Shown piece by piece: positions 46,963 through 53,175 of a stretch of 64,000 nucleotides of DNA. The stretch spans positions 1 to 64,000 of the forward strand of contig JAHIUW010000038.1 of the NCBI GenBank assembly GCA_018816865.1, given 5' to 3'. Source of the stretch: Pseudomonadota bacterium. GTDB taxonomy: Bacteria > Desulfobacterota > Desulfovibrionia > Desulfovibrionales > Desulfovibrionaceae. Numbering within the stretch: the stretch's first letter is position 1; every line of letters begins with the position of its first letter. Under the pieces are notes generated by a model. It saw only the letters and a list, made by a program, of their open reading frames with translations. It was not told where the DNA came from and made no database searches. Made by a program: the position numbers and the translations under genes.

Positions 46963-47757
46963 CTAGGGGTTTTGCGTGATGGCCCTCAGCCTGTCAAGGG
47001 CCAAAACGCCGCGGGGGCCCATCTTGAGGCTCATCTCGGTCACGTAGGCCTCGATATGGGCGCACAGGGTGTCGTTGTCCAGTTCCTGGGCCAGGGAGTG
47101 GATCAGGGGCCAGATCGAGGCCCTGTGGCGGTGGGCGTGTTCCAGGCTGGCCCGGATGGTCTGCGTCACGGCCCGGCGCAGGTCCTCGGGCAGGGAGCGC
47201 CGCGCTGCGATGACCCCCAGGGGCATGGGCGTACCCGCCCCGTGCTCGGCCCACCAGGCACCCAGGTCCAGGCGCAGTTCGAGGCCGTAACGGTCATGGA
47301 CCAGGGCGGTTTCGTGGATCACCAGCCCGGCGTCGGTCTGGCCTTGGGAGACGGCGTCCACGATGTCCGAAAAGAGCATGGGCACAGGGCTGAAGTCGTG
47401 CCCTAAGGCTGCACGGAGCACGGCAAAGGCCGTGGTCTTCAACCCTGGGACGGCGATGGTCCTGAGTTGCCTGGGGCTGTCCGGGCGGACCAGCAGCTTG
47501 GGACCGGCTCCGACCCCGAAGGCCGCGCCTGCGGAGAGGATCTCGTAGCTGTCCTCCAGGTCCAGGGCCGCGGCGGCGCTCAGTTTGAGTACGTCGAAAC
47601 GTCCCTGCTCGGCGGCGTTGTTCAATTCCTCCACGTCGGCCCAGACAAAGCGCACAGGCCTGCCCAGGCAATCCGGGATCAGGCCCTGCACCCAGGCCCC
47701 GAAGATGAAGGTGTCGTTGGGGCAGGGGGAGATGGCGACGGTCAGCGGTGCGTTCAC
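46963..47757 (-). CDS. mqnD: 1,4-dihydroxy-6-naphthoate synthase (futalosine pathway)
   Basis: MqnD (264 aa) converts cyclic dehypoxanthinyl futalosine in menaquinone synthesis. The family motifs VAISPCPNDTFIFGAW and DAGLVIHETALVH are present. It starts at GTG 47757, with AAGGA six bases before. It is followed by the polyprenyl synthase and preceded by mqnB. Confidence 0.93.
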   Translation of the reverse strand: MNAPLTVAISPCPNDTFIFGAWVQGLIPDCLGRPVRFVWADVEELNNAAEQGRFDVLKLSAAAALDLEDSYEILSAGAAFGVGAGPKLLVRPDSPRQLRTIAVPGLKTTAFAVLRAALGHDFSPVPMLFSDIVDAVSQGQTDAGLVIHETALVHDRYGLELRLDLGAWWAEHGAGTPMPLGVIAARRSLPEDLRRAVTQTIRASLEHAHRHRASIWPLIHSLAQELDNDTLCAHIEAYVTEMSLKMGPRGVLALDRLRAITQNP

Positions 47758-47841: not shown

Positions 47842-48528
47842 TCAGTCGGCAAAGAGCCCGGACAGGGCCGCGGCCAGTTGAGCCAGGGCGCCATTCAGGT
47901 CCCAGTGGGCCTTGTCGCGGCTGCCCACGAGATTGGAGATGGTCCGGACCTCCAGAAAGGGGATGGACGCCTGCAGGCATCCCAGGGCCAGGGCGAAGCC
48001 TTCCATATTTTCCGTGGTCGGCTGGTAGCGGGCATGCAGTTGCCTGGCGAAATCCGGGTCCCCGCTGGCAGCGGAGACCGTCAGGCTCGGTCCCTGGGGC
48101 CACTGCGGCGGCAGGGTCAGGCCCAAGGCCCGGGCAGCCGCGGCGGGGTCCAGGGGGATGCGGTCATGGATCGCGCCCAGGGGCGTTTGGGCCAGCGGGA
48201 ATCCGATGCCCCGGGGGTCGATGCCCTGGGGGGTGCGCAGTCCGTACTCCGGCCAGATCTCGGCCGAGGCCACCGAGAAGGAGCGCAGGGGCAGGGCCGC
48301 GATCTCGAAGCTCCCGGCCAGGCCCATGTTCAGGACGCCCGAGAGGGGGTGCGCACCCAGCATCCGCCCCAGACACAGGGCCGCGTTCAGGGGGCCGACC
48401 CCGGTCACGGCCGCCAGGACCGGACGACCGGCCACGGACGTCTGTTGCCAGGCCCCCTGGGGGGGTGCTGGAACCCCGGACAGGGCGGCGGCATATTCCT
48501 TGTGAGTGGCGAAGATCAGGGCCAGCAT
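47842..48528 (-). CDS. mqnB: Futalosine hydrolase
   Basis: MqnB (228 aa) is a nucleosidase of the MTAN fold that removes the hypoxanthine of futalosine. AAVTGVGPLNAALCLGRML, GLAGSF and the ENMEGFALA purine-site motif are visible. It begins two bases after the stop of the candidate selenoprotein, so translation is probably coupled. 84 bases separate it from mqnD. Confidence 0.9.
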   Translation of the reverse strand: MLALIFATHKEYAAALSGVPAPPQGAWQQTSVAGRPVLAAVTGVGPLNAALCLGRMLGAHPLSGVLNMGLAGSFEIAALPLRSFSVASAEIWPEYGLRTPQGIDPRGIGFPLAQTPLGAIHDRIPLDPAAAARALGLTLPPQWPQGPSLTVSAASGDPDFARQLHARYQPTTENMEGFALALGCLQASIPFLEVRTISNLVGSRDKAHWDLNGALAQLAAALSGLFAD

Positions 48529-48530
48529 GG

Positions 48531-48758
48531 CTATTCCTTGACCAGGGTGATGAGCAGATGCCCGTTGGGCAACAGCTCTTTGGCGGTCTGCCGCGCAGCA
48601 TAGTGTTCGGCCAGGATGTCGATCTTGAACAGCGAGGCCCCGTCCACCTCAGCTTCCAGCAGGGCGCCCGGGGGCATTGCCTTGAGGTGCGAACTCACCT
48701 CGCGGAAGCCCAGTCAGCATTCGCGCCAGCAGTTGATGCGCGGAGGGACCTCTGTCAC
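48531..48758 (-). CDS. Candidate selenoprotein, TusA/SirA-like, with in-frame TGA
   Basis: GTG 48758 has GGAGG eight bases upstream. The frame reads 14 codons (MTEVPPRINCWREC), an in-frame TGA (48714-48716), then 60 sense codons and TAG. The second part (SSHLKAMPPGALLEAEVDGASLFKIDILAEHYAA...HLLITLVKE) follows the TusA/SirA pattern, with Cys-Sec at the place of the catalytic Cys-Pro. Twelve bases after TGA, GAGGTG-AGTTCG-CACCTC forms a SECIS-like hairpin (48684-48701). The gene is packed between a sugar dehydrogenase (12 bases) and mqnB (2 bases). If TGA were a true stop, the frame would be a pseudogene or start downstream at a GTG or ATG. Confidence 0.7.
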
Positions 48759-48770
48759 GCGCCGATCCTC

Positions 48771-50090
<1,320 letters not shown>

Positions 50091-50166
50091 GAGTCGTTTA
50101 ACTCCTGCTGCCATGCCATCCCTGCCGGTGGTGGGCAGTGAATCACACACCGGGGACGAGGGTCGC

Positions 50167-50364
50167 ATGCAGTTTGATTGGCATTATTTTCTGGCAGCCC
50201 TCGGGCTGGCCTTCGTTCTGGAAGGTGTAGCGTATTTCCTCGGCGCCAACCAGATGCATGCGATGCTGAAGCTCTTGGCCCAACGGCCAGCGGCTGAACT
50301 GCGTTTGCTCGGCGGCGTGGCGATCATCGCCGGGCTGTTGCTGGTCTGGCTGGCCCGCCTCTAA
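50167..50364 (+). CDS. DUF2065-family small membrane protein
   Basis: A 65-aa protein with two hydrophobic segments (YFLAALGLAFVLEGVAYFL and LRLLGGVAIIAGLLLVWLA). This is the DUF2065/YjeT pattern, function unknown. GAGG precedes the ATG. Its end faces the end of the ubiE gene three bases away. Confidence 0.8.
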   Translation: MQFDWHYFLAALGLAFVLEGVAYFLGANQMHAMLKLLAQRPAAELRLLGGVAIIAGLLLVWLARL

Positions 50365-50367
50365 TCC

Positions 50368-51600
50368 TTACTTCTTGTCGCTGCCCTTCTTGGGGCCGGA
50401 CCGCTTTGGAGCAGCCTTCTTGGGCGAGGGCTGTTTCGGCGTGGCCTTGCCCGCGGCGGTCTTTTTCCCTGAAGATTTTTTCTGCGTCGATTTCTTGACG
50501 GGGGATTTCTTTTTGGCAGCTTTCGGGGCCGTTTTTTGGACGCCTGCCTGCGTTGCGGCGGGCTGTCCGGCTTCGCCCTGTATTCCCTCGGTGCTGTCGG
50601 CAACAGCCTTGGTCTTTGAAGCTGCGGCCTTTTTGGTACTTGTCTTGGAGGCCTGGGTGCCGCTCTGGATCGCCTTGTCCATGGCCCGCAAGCCCGCCTC
50701 CAGGTTGGCGGCCCGCCGAGTGGCACCTTGTCCTGTTTCGGCTTGGGCTTCGGCTTCGGCATCGGCTCTGGCATCGGCAGACGGAGCGGTGTTGTCGGTG
50801 GCGGGGGGCTTGGGGGCGCGTGAAGCACGGGCCTGCTTCGGCACGGGGCCGGGGCGCGCGCCGACGACGAAGGTCTGGCCATCAAAAAAGCGTCGTTCGG
50901 CCACATGGATGTTCACGATGCCCGAGAGCAGCTCCTCATGGGTCAGATTGACGAACCCGGCCTCGCGCAATTCCTCTTCCAGGGCCGGGGCCGTGGGGAA
51001 ATCGGCGATGGTCTCCGCCAGGTATTTGTACGCCTGCCTGTCCTTTGAGACCACGCGGCCCACCAGAGGCAGCAGCGTGTTCAGATAGAAATTGTAGAGG
51101 CCCTTCCAGATGGGGCGGTTGGACGAGCCGAATTCCAGGATGGCCAGTCGCCCGCCCGGGGCCAGGGTCCGCAGGATCTCGGCATAGGCGGCGCTGCGCG
51201 GACGGATGTTGCGGATGCCGAAGGCGATGGTCACCGCGTCCACGGACTGGTCGGCCAGGGGCAGCAGGCGGCCGTCCGCCAGCACAGGCAGGACATCGTT
51301 GCCGAAGGCTGCAAGCTTGGGCCTGCCTCGCTCCAGCATGGGCAGAGAGAAGTCCATGGCCAGAATCCGCGCGTCGGGGTGCAGGCGCTTGAGTTCGCGG
51401 GTCACGTCCATGGTCCCGGCGGCCAGGTCCAGAAAACGGCCGGTGGGTCCGGGGCGCACGGCCTTGACCAGTTTGCGCCGCCAGAGGATGTCCATGCCCA
51501 GGCTCAGGAAATGGTTTAGAAAATCGTACCAACCGGAAATGCGTCCGAACATGCCGGAGACATACCCGGCTTGATCTCTGGGGTCGTTCTTGATCGTCAT
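50368..51600 (-). CDS. ubiE: Demethylmenaquinone methyltransferase with lysine/alanine-rich tail
   Basis: Residues 1-240 are a complete UbiE/MenG methyltransferase: YVSGMFGRISGWYDFLNHFLSLGMDILWRRKLV, FLDLAAGTMDVTREL, DAVTIAFGIRNIR and ILEFGSSNRP. It would methylate demethylmenaquinone. The remaining 170 residues have no fold and are rich in Lys, Ala, Pro, Ser and Thr (for example STKKAAASKTKA, KKKSPVKKSTQKKSSGKKTA), much like histone H1 tails. The fusion is read without interruption. Confidence 0.9.
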   Translation of the reverse strand: MTIKNDPRDQAGYVSGMFGRISGWYDFLNHFLSLGMDILWRRKLVKAVRPGPTGRFLDLAAGTMDVTRELKRLHPDARILAMDFSLPMLERGRPKLAAFGNDVLPVLADGRLLPLADQSVDAVTIAFGIRNIRPRSAAYAEILRTLAPGGRLAILEFGSSNRPIWKGLYNFYLNTLLPLVGRVVSKDRQAYKYLAETIADFPTAPALEEELREAGFVNLTHEELLSGIVNIHVAERRFFDGQTFVVGARPGPVPKQARASRAPKPPATDNTAPSADARADAEAEAQAETGQGATRRAANLEAGLRAMDKAIQSGTQASKTSTKKAAASKTKAVADSTEGIQGEAGQPAATQAGVQKTAPKAAKKKSPVKKSTQKKSSGKKTAAGKATPKQPSPKKAAPKRSGPKKGSDKK

Positions 51601-52053: not shown

Positions 52054-53175
52054 TCAGTCTTTTCCGCCCAGCAGACCGGCGATTTCCTCGCGCAGGACCC
52101 TGGCCGCGGCAGCGGCGATCTGTTTTTCCATGTCGGCCATGAGTTCGGTTTTGATCTCGGCCTTCAGGGCCTCCAGGTCGGGTGTTGCTGCGGCCGAACC
52201 GGCAGCGGGCGCTGCGCTGGGCAGCCGACTTTGCATGTCGTTGAGCATGTCGTTCAGGCGACCCTGCAGATCCTCGCTCACGGTCTTTTCCACGCGCTCC
52301 AGGCGGCGGATCAACTCTTCCAGGGCCTGTTGGGGCAGGACGGCCGGAGGGCCATCGGCCACCATCTGGATGGTCTCGGACTCGGGGGCGACCGGCGCTT
52401 CAACAGCCTGCGCGGTTTCGGGAGCTTCGTCCTCAGTCCCCAGGTCGAGGTCGTCCAGCCCCTCAATGGTGGCGTCCAGGTCGCCCGGGCCTTCCAGATC
52501 TTCATCCAGCTCGGGAAAGGTGTCCTCTTCGGTCTGTGCTGCTTGGCCCTGGGTGGCGTCGTCGGACGCGCCTAGGGTGTCAGTGATGTCGTCGCCTAGC
52601 AGGTCGTCGAGGTCGTCGAGATTCAGGTCGTCATCCTCGGCCGCGTCGGTGGTCTCCGCCGCGTCGGCAGAGGCATCATCGCTGTCGTCGCCCAGCAGGT
52701 CGTCGAGGTCGTCGAGATTGAGATCGTCATCCTCGGCCGAGTCGGTGCTCTCCGCCGCGTCGGCAGAGGCATCATTGCTGTCGTCGCCCAGCAGGTCGTC
52801 GAGGTCGTCGAGATTCAGGTCGTCATCCGCGTCGGGTTGTTCGGCAGCGGGGGTGTCGTTGCCCAACAGTTCGTCCAGGTCGGACAGGTCTCCCAGGTCG
52901 TCGTCAGCGTCGTCTCCGGCATCGCCGCCGGTGTCGTCACCAAGGGAATCCAGCTCTTCGTCCAATCCGGAGAGGTCGATGTCCTCGTCATCATCGCCCG
53001 CAGGGGCGGCGTCGCCGGTCTCGTCCTCGTCGTCGGAGAAGAGTTCCTCGAGTTCCTGCTCGAAGCTGATGTCAACGTCATCATCGTTGTCCCCGCCGCC
53101 CTCGGCAAGGTCGCCTTTCTTGATGATGTCGGTCAGTTCAAGGATTTCCTCGGTGTTGGCGTCGTCGGGGGCCAT
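52054..53175 (-). CDS. Acidic repeat protein, unknown function
   Basis: A 373-aa protein with an extreme Asp/Glu bias in residues 25-250. It begins with an amphipathic motif (EEILELTDIIKKGD) found at the start of some membrane-associated scaffold-like proteins. It then holds a 32-residue unit (DDDLNLDDLDDLLGDDS...) in two full and one partial copies. The C-terminal 110 residues are coiled coil (QQALEELIRRLERVEKTVSEDLQGRLNDM... and DLEALKAEIKTELMADMEKQIAAAAARVLREEIA). GAGGTGAG precedes the ATG. Confidence 0.75.
   Translation of the reverse strand: MAPDDANTEEILELTDIIKKGDLAEGGGDNDDDVDISFEQELEELFSDDEDETGDAAPAGDDDEDIDLSGLDEELDSLGDDTGGDAGDDADDDLGDLSDLDELLGNDTPAAEQPDADDDLNLDDLDDLLGDDSNDASADAAESTDSAEDDDLNLDDLDDLLGDDSDDASADAAETTDAAEDDDLNLDDLDDLLGDDITDTLGASDDATQGQAAQTEEDTFPELDEDLEGPGDLDATIEGLDDLDLGTEDEAPETAQAVEAPVAPESETIQMVADGPPAVLPQQALEELIRRLERVEKTVSEDLQGRLNDMLNDMQSRLPSAAPAAGSAAATPDLEALKAEIKTELMADMEKQIAAAAARVLREEIAGLLGGKD
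52588..52830. repeat. 96-bp tandem repeat in coding DNA
   Basis: Copies start at 52588, 52684 and 52780, in frame (32 codons). The first two are full and differ at a few bases; the third stops after about 50 bases. Confidence 0.85.

Follow-up and report, generated by a model that had tools for sequence, protein, structure and literature searches.

What does an in-frame TGA signify when it interrupts a short reading frame that is otherwise intact, and what kind of protein would result from reading through it? Both questions are raised by a minus-strand gene of the window (the whole stretch of DNA that was analysed, 64,000 nucleotides long, from a relative of sulfate-reducing bacteria). The gene begins with GTG (48758-48756), 8 nt from an AGGAGG (48772-48767); 14 codons lead to the TGA (48716-48714), a further 60 to a TAG (48533-48531), and the ATG of mqnB follows two bases later, at 48528. 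With the TGA read as selenocysteine (Sec, U) and the first codon taken as Met, the protein is MTEVPPRINCWREC-U-LGFREVSSHLKAMPPGALLEAEVDGASLFKIDILAEHYAARQTAKELLPNGHLLITLVKE. A preliminary description of this DNA had given the layout exactly, leaving the strand (minus) unstated, and had pointed to GAGGTG-AGTTCG-CACCTC twelve bases past the TGA, where it indeed lies, at 48701-48684. It had proposed a selenoprotein of the TusA/SirA pattern made with menaquinone genes, and the parts of that proposal fare differently in what follows. The features of the locus are collected in Table 1.

Table 1. The candidate selenoprotein gene and its surroundings in the window
Feature	Position	Strand	Basis
Candidate TusA-like selenoprotein CDS, 75 aa, GTG start, TAG stop	48531..48758	minus	TGA read as Sec; 73 carriers; purifying selection, from sequence comparison
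TGA as putative Sec, codon 15, after Cys14	48714..48716	minus	at one column in 42/42 order-level carriers; after Cys in 31/31 further phylum-level ones
Putative bacterial SECIS hairpin, 6-bp stem GAGGUG/CACCUC, loop AGUUCG, UGA-to-loop 18 nt	48684..48701	minus	family-wide stem and covariation; bSECIS constraints
AGGAGG ribosome-binding site; overlaps the stop codon of the gene upstream	48767..48772	minus	sequence
mqnB, futalosine hydrolase, start 2 nt past TAG	47842..48528	minus	NCBIfam TIGR03664, E 3.8e-54, over cut-off
Nucleotide-sugar dehydrogenase, directly upstream, 12 nt gap	48771..50168	minus	TIGR03026 over cut-off; PF03721, PF00984, PF03720
Menaquinone biosynthesis protein, MqnA/MqnD family	46963..47757	minus	PF02621, E 5e-60

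Homologues and the TGA column

A search for relatives with the single window protein finds none, patterns made from Cys codons being unable to match TGA. Protein searches with Cys written for Sec find homologues in 42 of 297 genomes of the order, the window genome included, each with one TGA. The profile made from these 42 sequences matches 21 of 395 genomes of the phylum (the window's own included). A second profile, built on 49 of the 62 homologues then known, with 13 close relatives left out, matches 32 of the 395 at E <= 2e-9, again counting the window's own genome and again with one TGA each; there follows a gap, from E 2e-9 to 0.0057, and the next match is without TGA. In total, 73 of 73 homologues have exactly one TGA, following a Cys and at the same place, with no other stop within the match. 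The TGA occupies one column after an invariant Cys in the order-level set; the new phylum-level sequences have Cys-TGA at the start of the domain (20 + 10 + 1 read), and both columns are invariant among the 20 of them that were aligned. The scripts that read the sequences looked for Cys-TGA and presupposed it, while the TGA counts of the genome searches were made independently. Conservation extends to both sides of the TGA, and the residue two past the TGA is kept, mostly as Gly or Ala.

Homologues with neither Cys nor Sec at this site, which the preliminary description held would speak against a selenoprotein, did not appear in the search that it had proposed: all 73 have the putative Sec codon there. 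A form with Cys at the Sec site is likewise absent from the 42 order-level and 32 phylum-level clear matches, though the query carried Cys there. Nine weaker matches were fetched, three with a TusA-like CP motif (14-18 bits, judged by eye) and six noise-like. One of the six, a 19-residue CWQHCC look-alike in a phylum genome (G584), was weighed as a possible Cys-Cys form and rejected: it is not in frame and falls within another coding frame. An E of 0.01, such as this match has, is what chance would give in 395 genomes.

Among the sampled genomes the family is present in 13 bacterial families of the phylum (f1 and 12 others). A strict DNA motif scan of genome contigs returned 40 loci, of which 8 are family members and 32 share the motif alone; the 8 come from records named Desulfovibrio, Halodesulfovibrio, Desulfovibrionaceae, Desulfovibrionales or delta proteobacterium, and all were already among the 42 carriers. 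The form of motif scanned for excludes the D-Y/S-R variant of the wider phylum, and the distribution given here is that known from the order and phylum samples.

The substitution pattern bears on the part of the gene past the TGA. For the 45 most similar pairs printed (equal length, >55% identity, at least 5 differences; the pairs are not independent), dN is lower than dS past the TGA in every one, at ratios of 0 to 0.54; between the window gene and its nearest relative this part has dS 0.63 and dN 0.17. By this measure the frame past the TGA is under purifying selection, and dN below dS in all listed pairs argues that this part is translated in that frame.

The SECIS hairpin

The window hairpin, taken alone, is unremarkable: its z is -0.58 against dinucleotide shuffles of 60 nt, and 10% of synonymous recodings of the window sequence give an equal stem. 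A scan of 48500-48800 against Rfam gives no match. The hairpin falls within the four-part bSECIS model as set out in PMC13188914 (a loop of 3-9 nt on a stem of 4-16 bp, a G among the first two loop positions, a distance of 16-37 nt to the UGA and MFE <= -7.5 kcal/mol), with its 6-nt loop AGUUCG, 6 bp, G in second place and a distance of 18 nt; its energy is -19.3 kcal/mol over 51 nt. The significance of the hairpin is seen only across the family, and the tests that establish this cover 62 homologues, the 11 later ones having been left out and read by eye.

The contiguous stem has a mean length of 6.94 bp in these 62 members, versus 2.08 bp on synonymous recoding (sd of the family mean 0.22), and the highest family mean in 500 family-wide synonymous randomisations is 2.69 bp. 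At least 5 contiguous pairs form at the fixed place in 59 members; the other three have short stems (L011, 4 bp; L022, 2; L025, 1). The loop starts AGUU in 51 of the 62, and the inner pair of the hairpin lies 19-20 nt past the U of UGA in nearly all. Stems were taken as closing 19 or 20 nt past that U, with loops of 4 or 6, and randomised sequences were searched alike; the position was fixed after a prior look at folding energy in the same 62 members, of which 55 have a 51-nt folding energy under the synonymous mean (mean z -1.35).

The two arms also covary. The score is 0.413 versus 0.226 shuffled for a loop length of 6 (slid controls at most 0.246) and 0.551 versus 0.285 for a loop length of 4 (slid controls at most 0.161), and at neither length is it reached in any of 500 shuffles. 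Changes on both sides are found in 4 of 7 pairs (loop 6) and 5 of 7 (loop 4), which 46 and 19 of 500 shuffles equal; the number of further pair types does not stand out either, as many being seen in 61 and 132 of the 500 shuffles. These pair counts lean towards structure because the members were split by better-fitting loop length (31 and 31); the slid control gives a fairer comparison.

The selenocysteine machinery

The window genome (42 contigs, 99.97% complete) carries selA (606 bits), selB (392 bits), selC, the gene for tRNA-Sec (76.3 bits), and selD, all over their cut-offs; their absence, which the preliminary description had named as grounds for abandoning its reading, did not occur. 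The genome also has two formate dehydrogenase genes (fdhA), both TGA-containing. Its selD (L222, G000:C21:41386-42303) is itself of the TGA-containing form, with Sec after Ala-Ala-Gly.

tRNA-Sec is over cut-off in 42 of 42 order-level carriers and matched at E <= 1e-7 in all 31 further phylum-level carriers, G495 and G629 giving weak matches (3.3e-9 and 6.9e-9). Two order-level carriers with fragmented assemblies, G251 and G264, reach only E 7.4e-26 and 3.5e-56 for selB, yet their tRNA-Sec is over cut-off. Possession of selB or tRNA-Sec does not discriminate the carriers, because most sampled genomes possess them: selB is over cut-off in 251 of the 297 order genomes, of which 42 have the family gene, and tRNA-Sec in 355 of the 395 phylum genomes, of which 32 have it.

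The Sec machinery, the TGA in 73 of 73 homologues and the covariation of the SECIS hairpin all support the selenoprotein reading. On this comparative evidence the window gene is almost certainly a selenoprotein gene in which UGA codon 15 is decoded as Sec, its product standing as a candidate at the protein level.

A predicted TusA-like fold

Scanned against Pfam and NCBIfam, the window protein has no hit at E <= 1, and a sequence search of solved structures yields PRDM9 zinc fingers alone, at E 0.51. Four of 49 members match Pfam TusA (PF01206), the best with E 1.7e-6; the gathering cut-off is 28.6 bits, and the members with bits shown, at 22.2 and 26.7, are both under it. When TusA was searched for in 60 genomes, nine of which are carriers, one of the nine family genes came up (26.7 bits, E 1.7e-5, below cut-off). 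In profile alignment, hhalign of the family against 21 TusA proteins gives a probability of 90% and E 1.7e-6, with a one-residue gap in the motif region.

The AlphaFold2 model (nine sequences, Cys written for Sec; pLDDT 91.3, pTM 0.77) has the predicted topology beta-alpha-beta-alpha-beta-beta, with helix 1 starting at Cys14. Its nearest solved chains by VIA-align are those of YeeE-YeeD, at Z 11.2 (rmsd 2.0 over 73) and 11.0 (2.5 over 74), with SirA-like 3hz7 at 9.9 (2.0 over 70) and TusA 3lvj at 9.6 (2.7 over 73). Chains of the TusA family thus rank first (Z 11.2-9.2); 3wbm (8.9) and Alba 2z7c (8.7) follow from outside it, and because these come close, part of the structural score reflects a common arrangement and the margin is modest. 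The same YeeD, SirA-like and TusA proteins lead the Foldseek list, with weak E-values (best 1.8e-3, none <= 0.001). The predicted fold and the distant profile similarity bear out the TusA/SirA pattern that had been noticed from the sequence: a TusA-like fold and a distant relationship to TusA are very probable.

What the family lacks is the TusA motif. CPxP is absent in 73 of 73 sequences, which have Cys-Sec-x-Gly/Ala/Pro instead, usually as Asp-Cys-Sec-x-Gly/Ala. The proposal that Cys14-Sec15 falls on TusA Cys-Pro stands in one alignment and fails in the other: the Pfam alignment of one member, starting at profile position 10, sets Cys on the TusA Cys and Sec on the Pro, and hhalign sets Sec on the TusA Cys. 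With TusA/SirA (PF01206), then, the family shares size, predicted fold, a reactive residue at the start of helix 1 and distant profile similarity; it differs in motif, and the window protein lies outside Pfam TusA. YeeD/TsuB, the thiosulfate uptake partner of YeeE (8j4c, 8k1r), which provides the best structural matches, is described as keeping CPxP with a cis Cys-Pro peptide (PMC11073785), unlike the window family. YedF (TIGR03527) has in common with the family a SirA-like domain and a link to selenium use, but is presented as two domains with CPxP and CGxC (PMC5322559), whereas the window protein is a single 75-residue domain with a putative Sec. The YedF model (SirA + DsrE) is not matched, there being no NCBIfam hit for the window protein and none relevant for the 49 members.

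A possible mechanism and its rivals

The fold and the motif suggest a chemistry, put forward tentatively and by analogy, with a chance that we set a little short of even. The vicinal Cys-Sec pair would take the place of Cys-Pro-x-Pro at the start of helix 1, where the selenolate, at the helix N-terminus, would attack sulfane or other oxidised sulfur (persulfide, thiosulfate, polysulfide) to form a selenosulfide. The neighbouring Cys would resolve this to a Cys-Sec selenenylsulfide, with sulfide released or passed on, and a cellular thiol reductant would regenerate the pair. The Gly-Cys-Sec-Gly end of thioredoxin reductase closes a selenenylsulfide, and the pair may be likened to it. A further Cys four residues ahead of the pair's first Cys (Cys10 here, and present in order-level members) might resolve or relay. 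The protein would then accept sulfur in the manner of TusA and could in addition cycle as a reductase, the selenolate taking sulfane sulfur quickly and the adjacent Cys freeing sulfide. YeeD is described as taking persulfide and thiosulfate-derived sulfur at its CPxP Cys, the place at which TusA-type proteins carry sulfur (PMC11073785). No Cys form turned up in the 693 genomes searched, one to two hundred-fold more than it takes to meet the Sec form, and this argues that selenium is required for the chemistry. The account in its entirety (a 75-residue Sec protein with a SECIS hairpin 12 nt downstream, a TusA-like fold and a Cys-Sec pair acting as sulfur acceptor/reductase) seems to us on balance probable, though not by much.

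Two other functions for a Cys-Sec protein have to be weighed, both of them unlikely. The protein might give selenium to SelD or report selenium status, as a carrier or sensor in the manner of SirA-like/YedF proteins. The TusA fold would suit such a task, as would the links to SelD that PMC5322559 reports for YedF (SirA + DsrE) and for the LysR_Se regulator, and a LysR regulator lies directly upstream in 5 of 20 phylum-level loci, its identity as LysR_Se being that of a candidate. Most sampled Sec users, however, are without the gene (42 genomes versus 251 of 297 with selB; 32 versus 355 of 395 with tRNA-Sec), and a general role in selenium delivery was set back on this ground. Equally improbable is a binder of soft metals or metalloids, its Cys-Sec pair capturing Hg, Cd, As or organometals. 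Table 1 of the 2026 catalogue does contain CU-motif selenoproteins with metal-related names (HgcA, SaoL, MbdU and the Csac_0668 family; PMC13188914), but none of 10 Pfam-scanned neighbour proteins is a metal-resistance protein, and the fold is that of sulfur carriers.

Gene neighbourhoods

Neighbourhoods were compared by tblastn in 32 of the 41 order-level carriers other than the window's own genome and in 20 of the 31 phylum-level ones; the ORFs of six other phylum-level loci were glanced at. The dehydrogenase and mqnB surround the gene in 21 of the 32 order-level loci, one of which ends before mqnB; L138 has its dehydrogenase at a distance of 0.8 kb from the selenoprotein gene. In nine others rpsA and the gene of a TauE-type exporter flank it, and an HGD-D protein is encoded upstream; two have neither context. 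None of the 20 phylum-level loci yields a match to mqnB. The association with menaquinone genes that the window suggests is lineage-specific, not general as the preliminary description would have it. Neighbours differ among lineages, and context therefore fixes neither role nor substrate.

The reading of the protein as an accessory of menaquinone (futalosine) biosynthesis and partner of MqnB fares worse than the preceding two. The two-base spacing to mqnB in the window and the surroundings in 21 order-level loci speak for it; the eleven order-level loci with other neighbours and the phylum-level loci devoid of mqnB speak against it, as does a full-text search (most subscription journals and all supplements lie outside its reach) in which no paper joins a selenoprotein with futalosine. 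It is thus very improbable, and a menaquinone-specific role was set back because the genomic context is not kept. Scarcely credible is an ordinary stop, with a 14-codon leader followed by a separate small gene that starts inside (a GTG is available at 48698) and is kept merely as part of an operon: the single-sequence hairpin statistics are indeed not significant, but in 73 genomes the motif runs across the TGA at a constant distance, the stop codon there is always TGA, the Cys ahead of it and mostly Gly/Ala two after it are kept, the SECIS covaries, and the neighbours vary by lineage.

The nine rpsA-TauE/SafE loci belong to one genus (L039, L040, L042, L045, L140, L149, L150, L153, L154); upstream genes encode an HGD-D (HgdB-like) protein in all nine and a BadF-like activase in eight. 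In a divergent branch (L170, L171, L227, L229) the gene adjoins and precedes dus, assigned by Pfam for L170 and by cluster or eye for the others. The ORFs upstream in L227 and L229 we take to be speD-like and agmatinase-like.

Relation to catalogued selenoproteins

Among the 119 families in Table 1 of the 2026 review (PMC13188914) there is no TusA/SirA selenoprotein, nor does the 2022 review's Table 1 of prokaryotic selenoproteins have a TusA/SirA entry; the comparison was made by listed domain or motif, and it is by these descriptions that the window family is set apart from the 119. The 49 members match no selenoprotein model of NCBIfam or Pfam, and many catalogue entries have such models. 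A full-text search, with most subscription journals and supplements outside its reach, found no paper on a SirA-like selenoprotein in Desulfovibrio. The lists of a 2006 survey, 8 and 7 selenoproteins in two Desulfovibrio species that may or may not carry the gene, hold no TusA-like entry. The absence from catalogues and full-text searches is why we call this a new selenoprotein family in a known fold; it is apparently uncatalogued.

Its nearest parallels differ in kind. The CU-motif selenoproteins of the catalogue (SaoL, SaoC, HgcA, MbdU, KCU-star and the Csac_0668 family) also have a vicinal Cys-Sec pair, but unlike the window family none is listed with a TusA domain (PMC13188914). A c-type cytochrome candidate of Geobacter and relatives (PMC1914089) is called by its authors a rare selenoprotein without non-Sec homologues, a trait shared with the window family; it is a multihaem cytochrome for which its authors report finding no SECIS, unlike the window family.

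It is fairly probable that this is the first selenoprotein branch of the TusA superfamily, one without a Cys form, in which an obligate Cys-Sec pair would serve a sulfur/selenium relay, and that it escaped notice because searches depend largely on Cys homologues and because the TGA splits the gene in ordinary annotation. The nine new families of deep-Sep are said to have Cys homologues. The existence of the uncatalogued window family suggests that selenoproteins without Cys homologues are under-counted, because SECIS-independent searches, as described in PMC12013277, begin from Cys-containing proteins. If the reading is true, the family is among very few bacterial selenoprotein families without any cysteine form. 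It would place selenium in the TusA sulfur-carrier fold, and it raises the question of what a sulfur carrier gains from an obligate selenolate.

Other observations in the window

A UbiE/MenG-type methyltransferase (50368-51600, minus strand; PF01209 on residues 13-234 of 410) has a long Lys/Ala/Pro-rich, histone-H1-like tail. Tails are similar in L135, L136 and L139, consist of Gln/Ser repeats in L044, and are lacking in L043, L047, L138, L142 and L144. An acidic protein encoded at 52054-53175 (minus strand), with no Pfam family at E <= 0.001, carries repeated DDLNLDDLDDLLGDD-like units.
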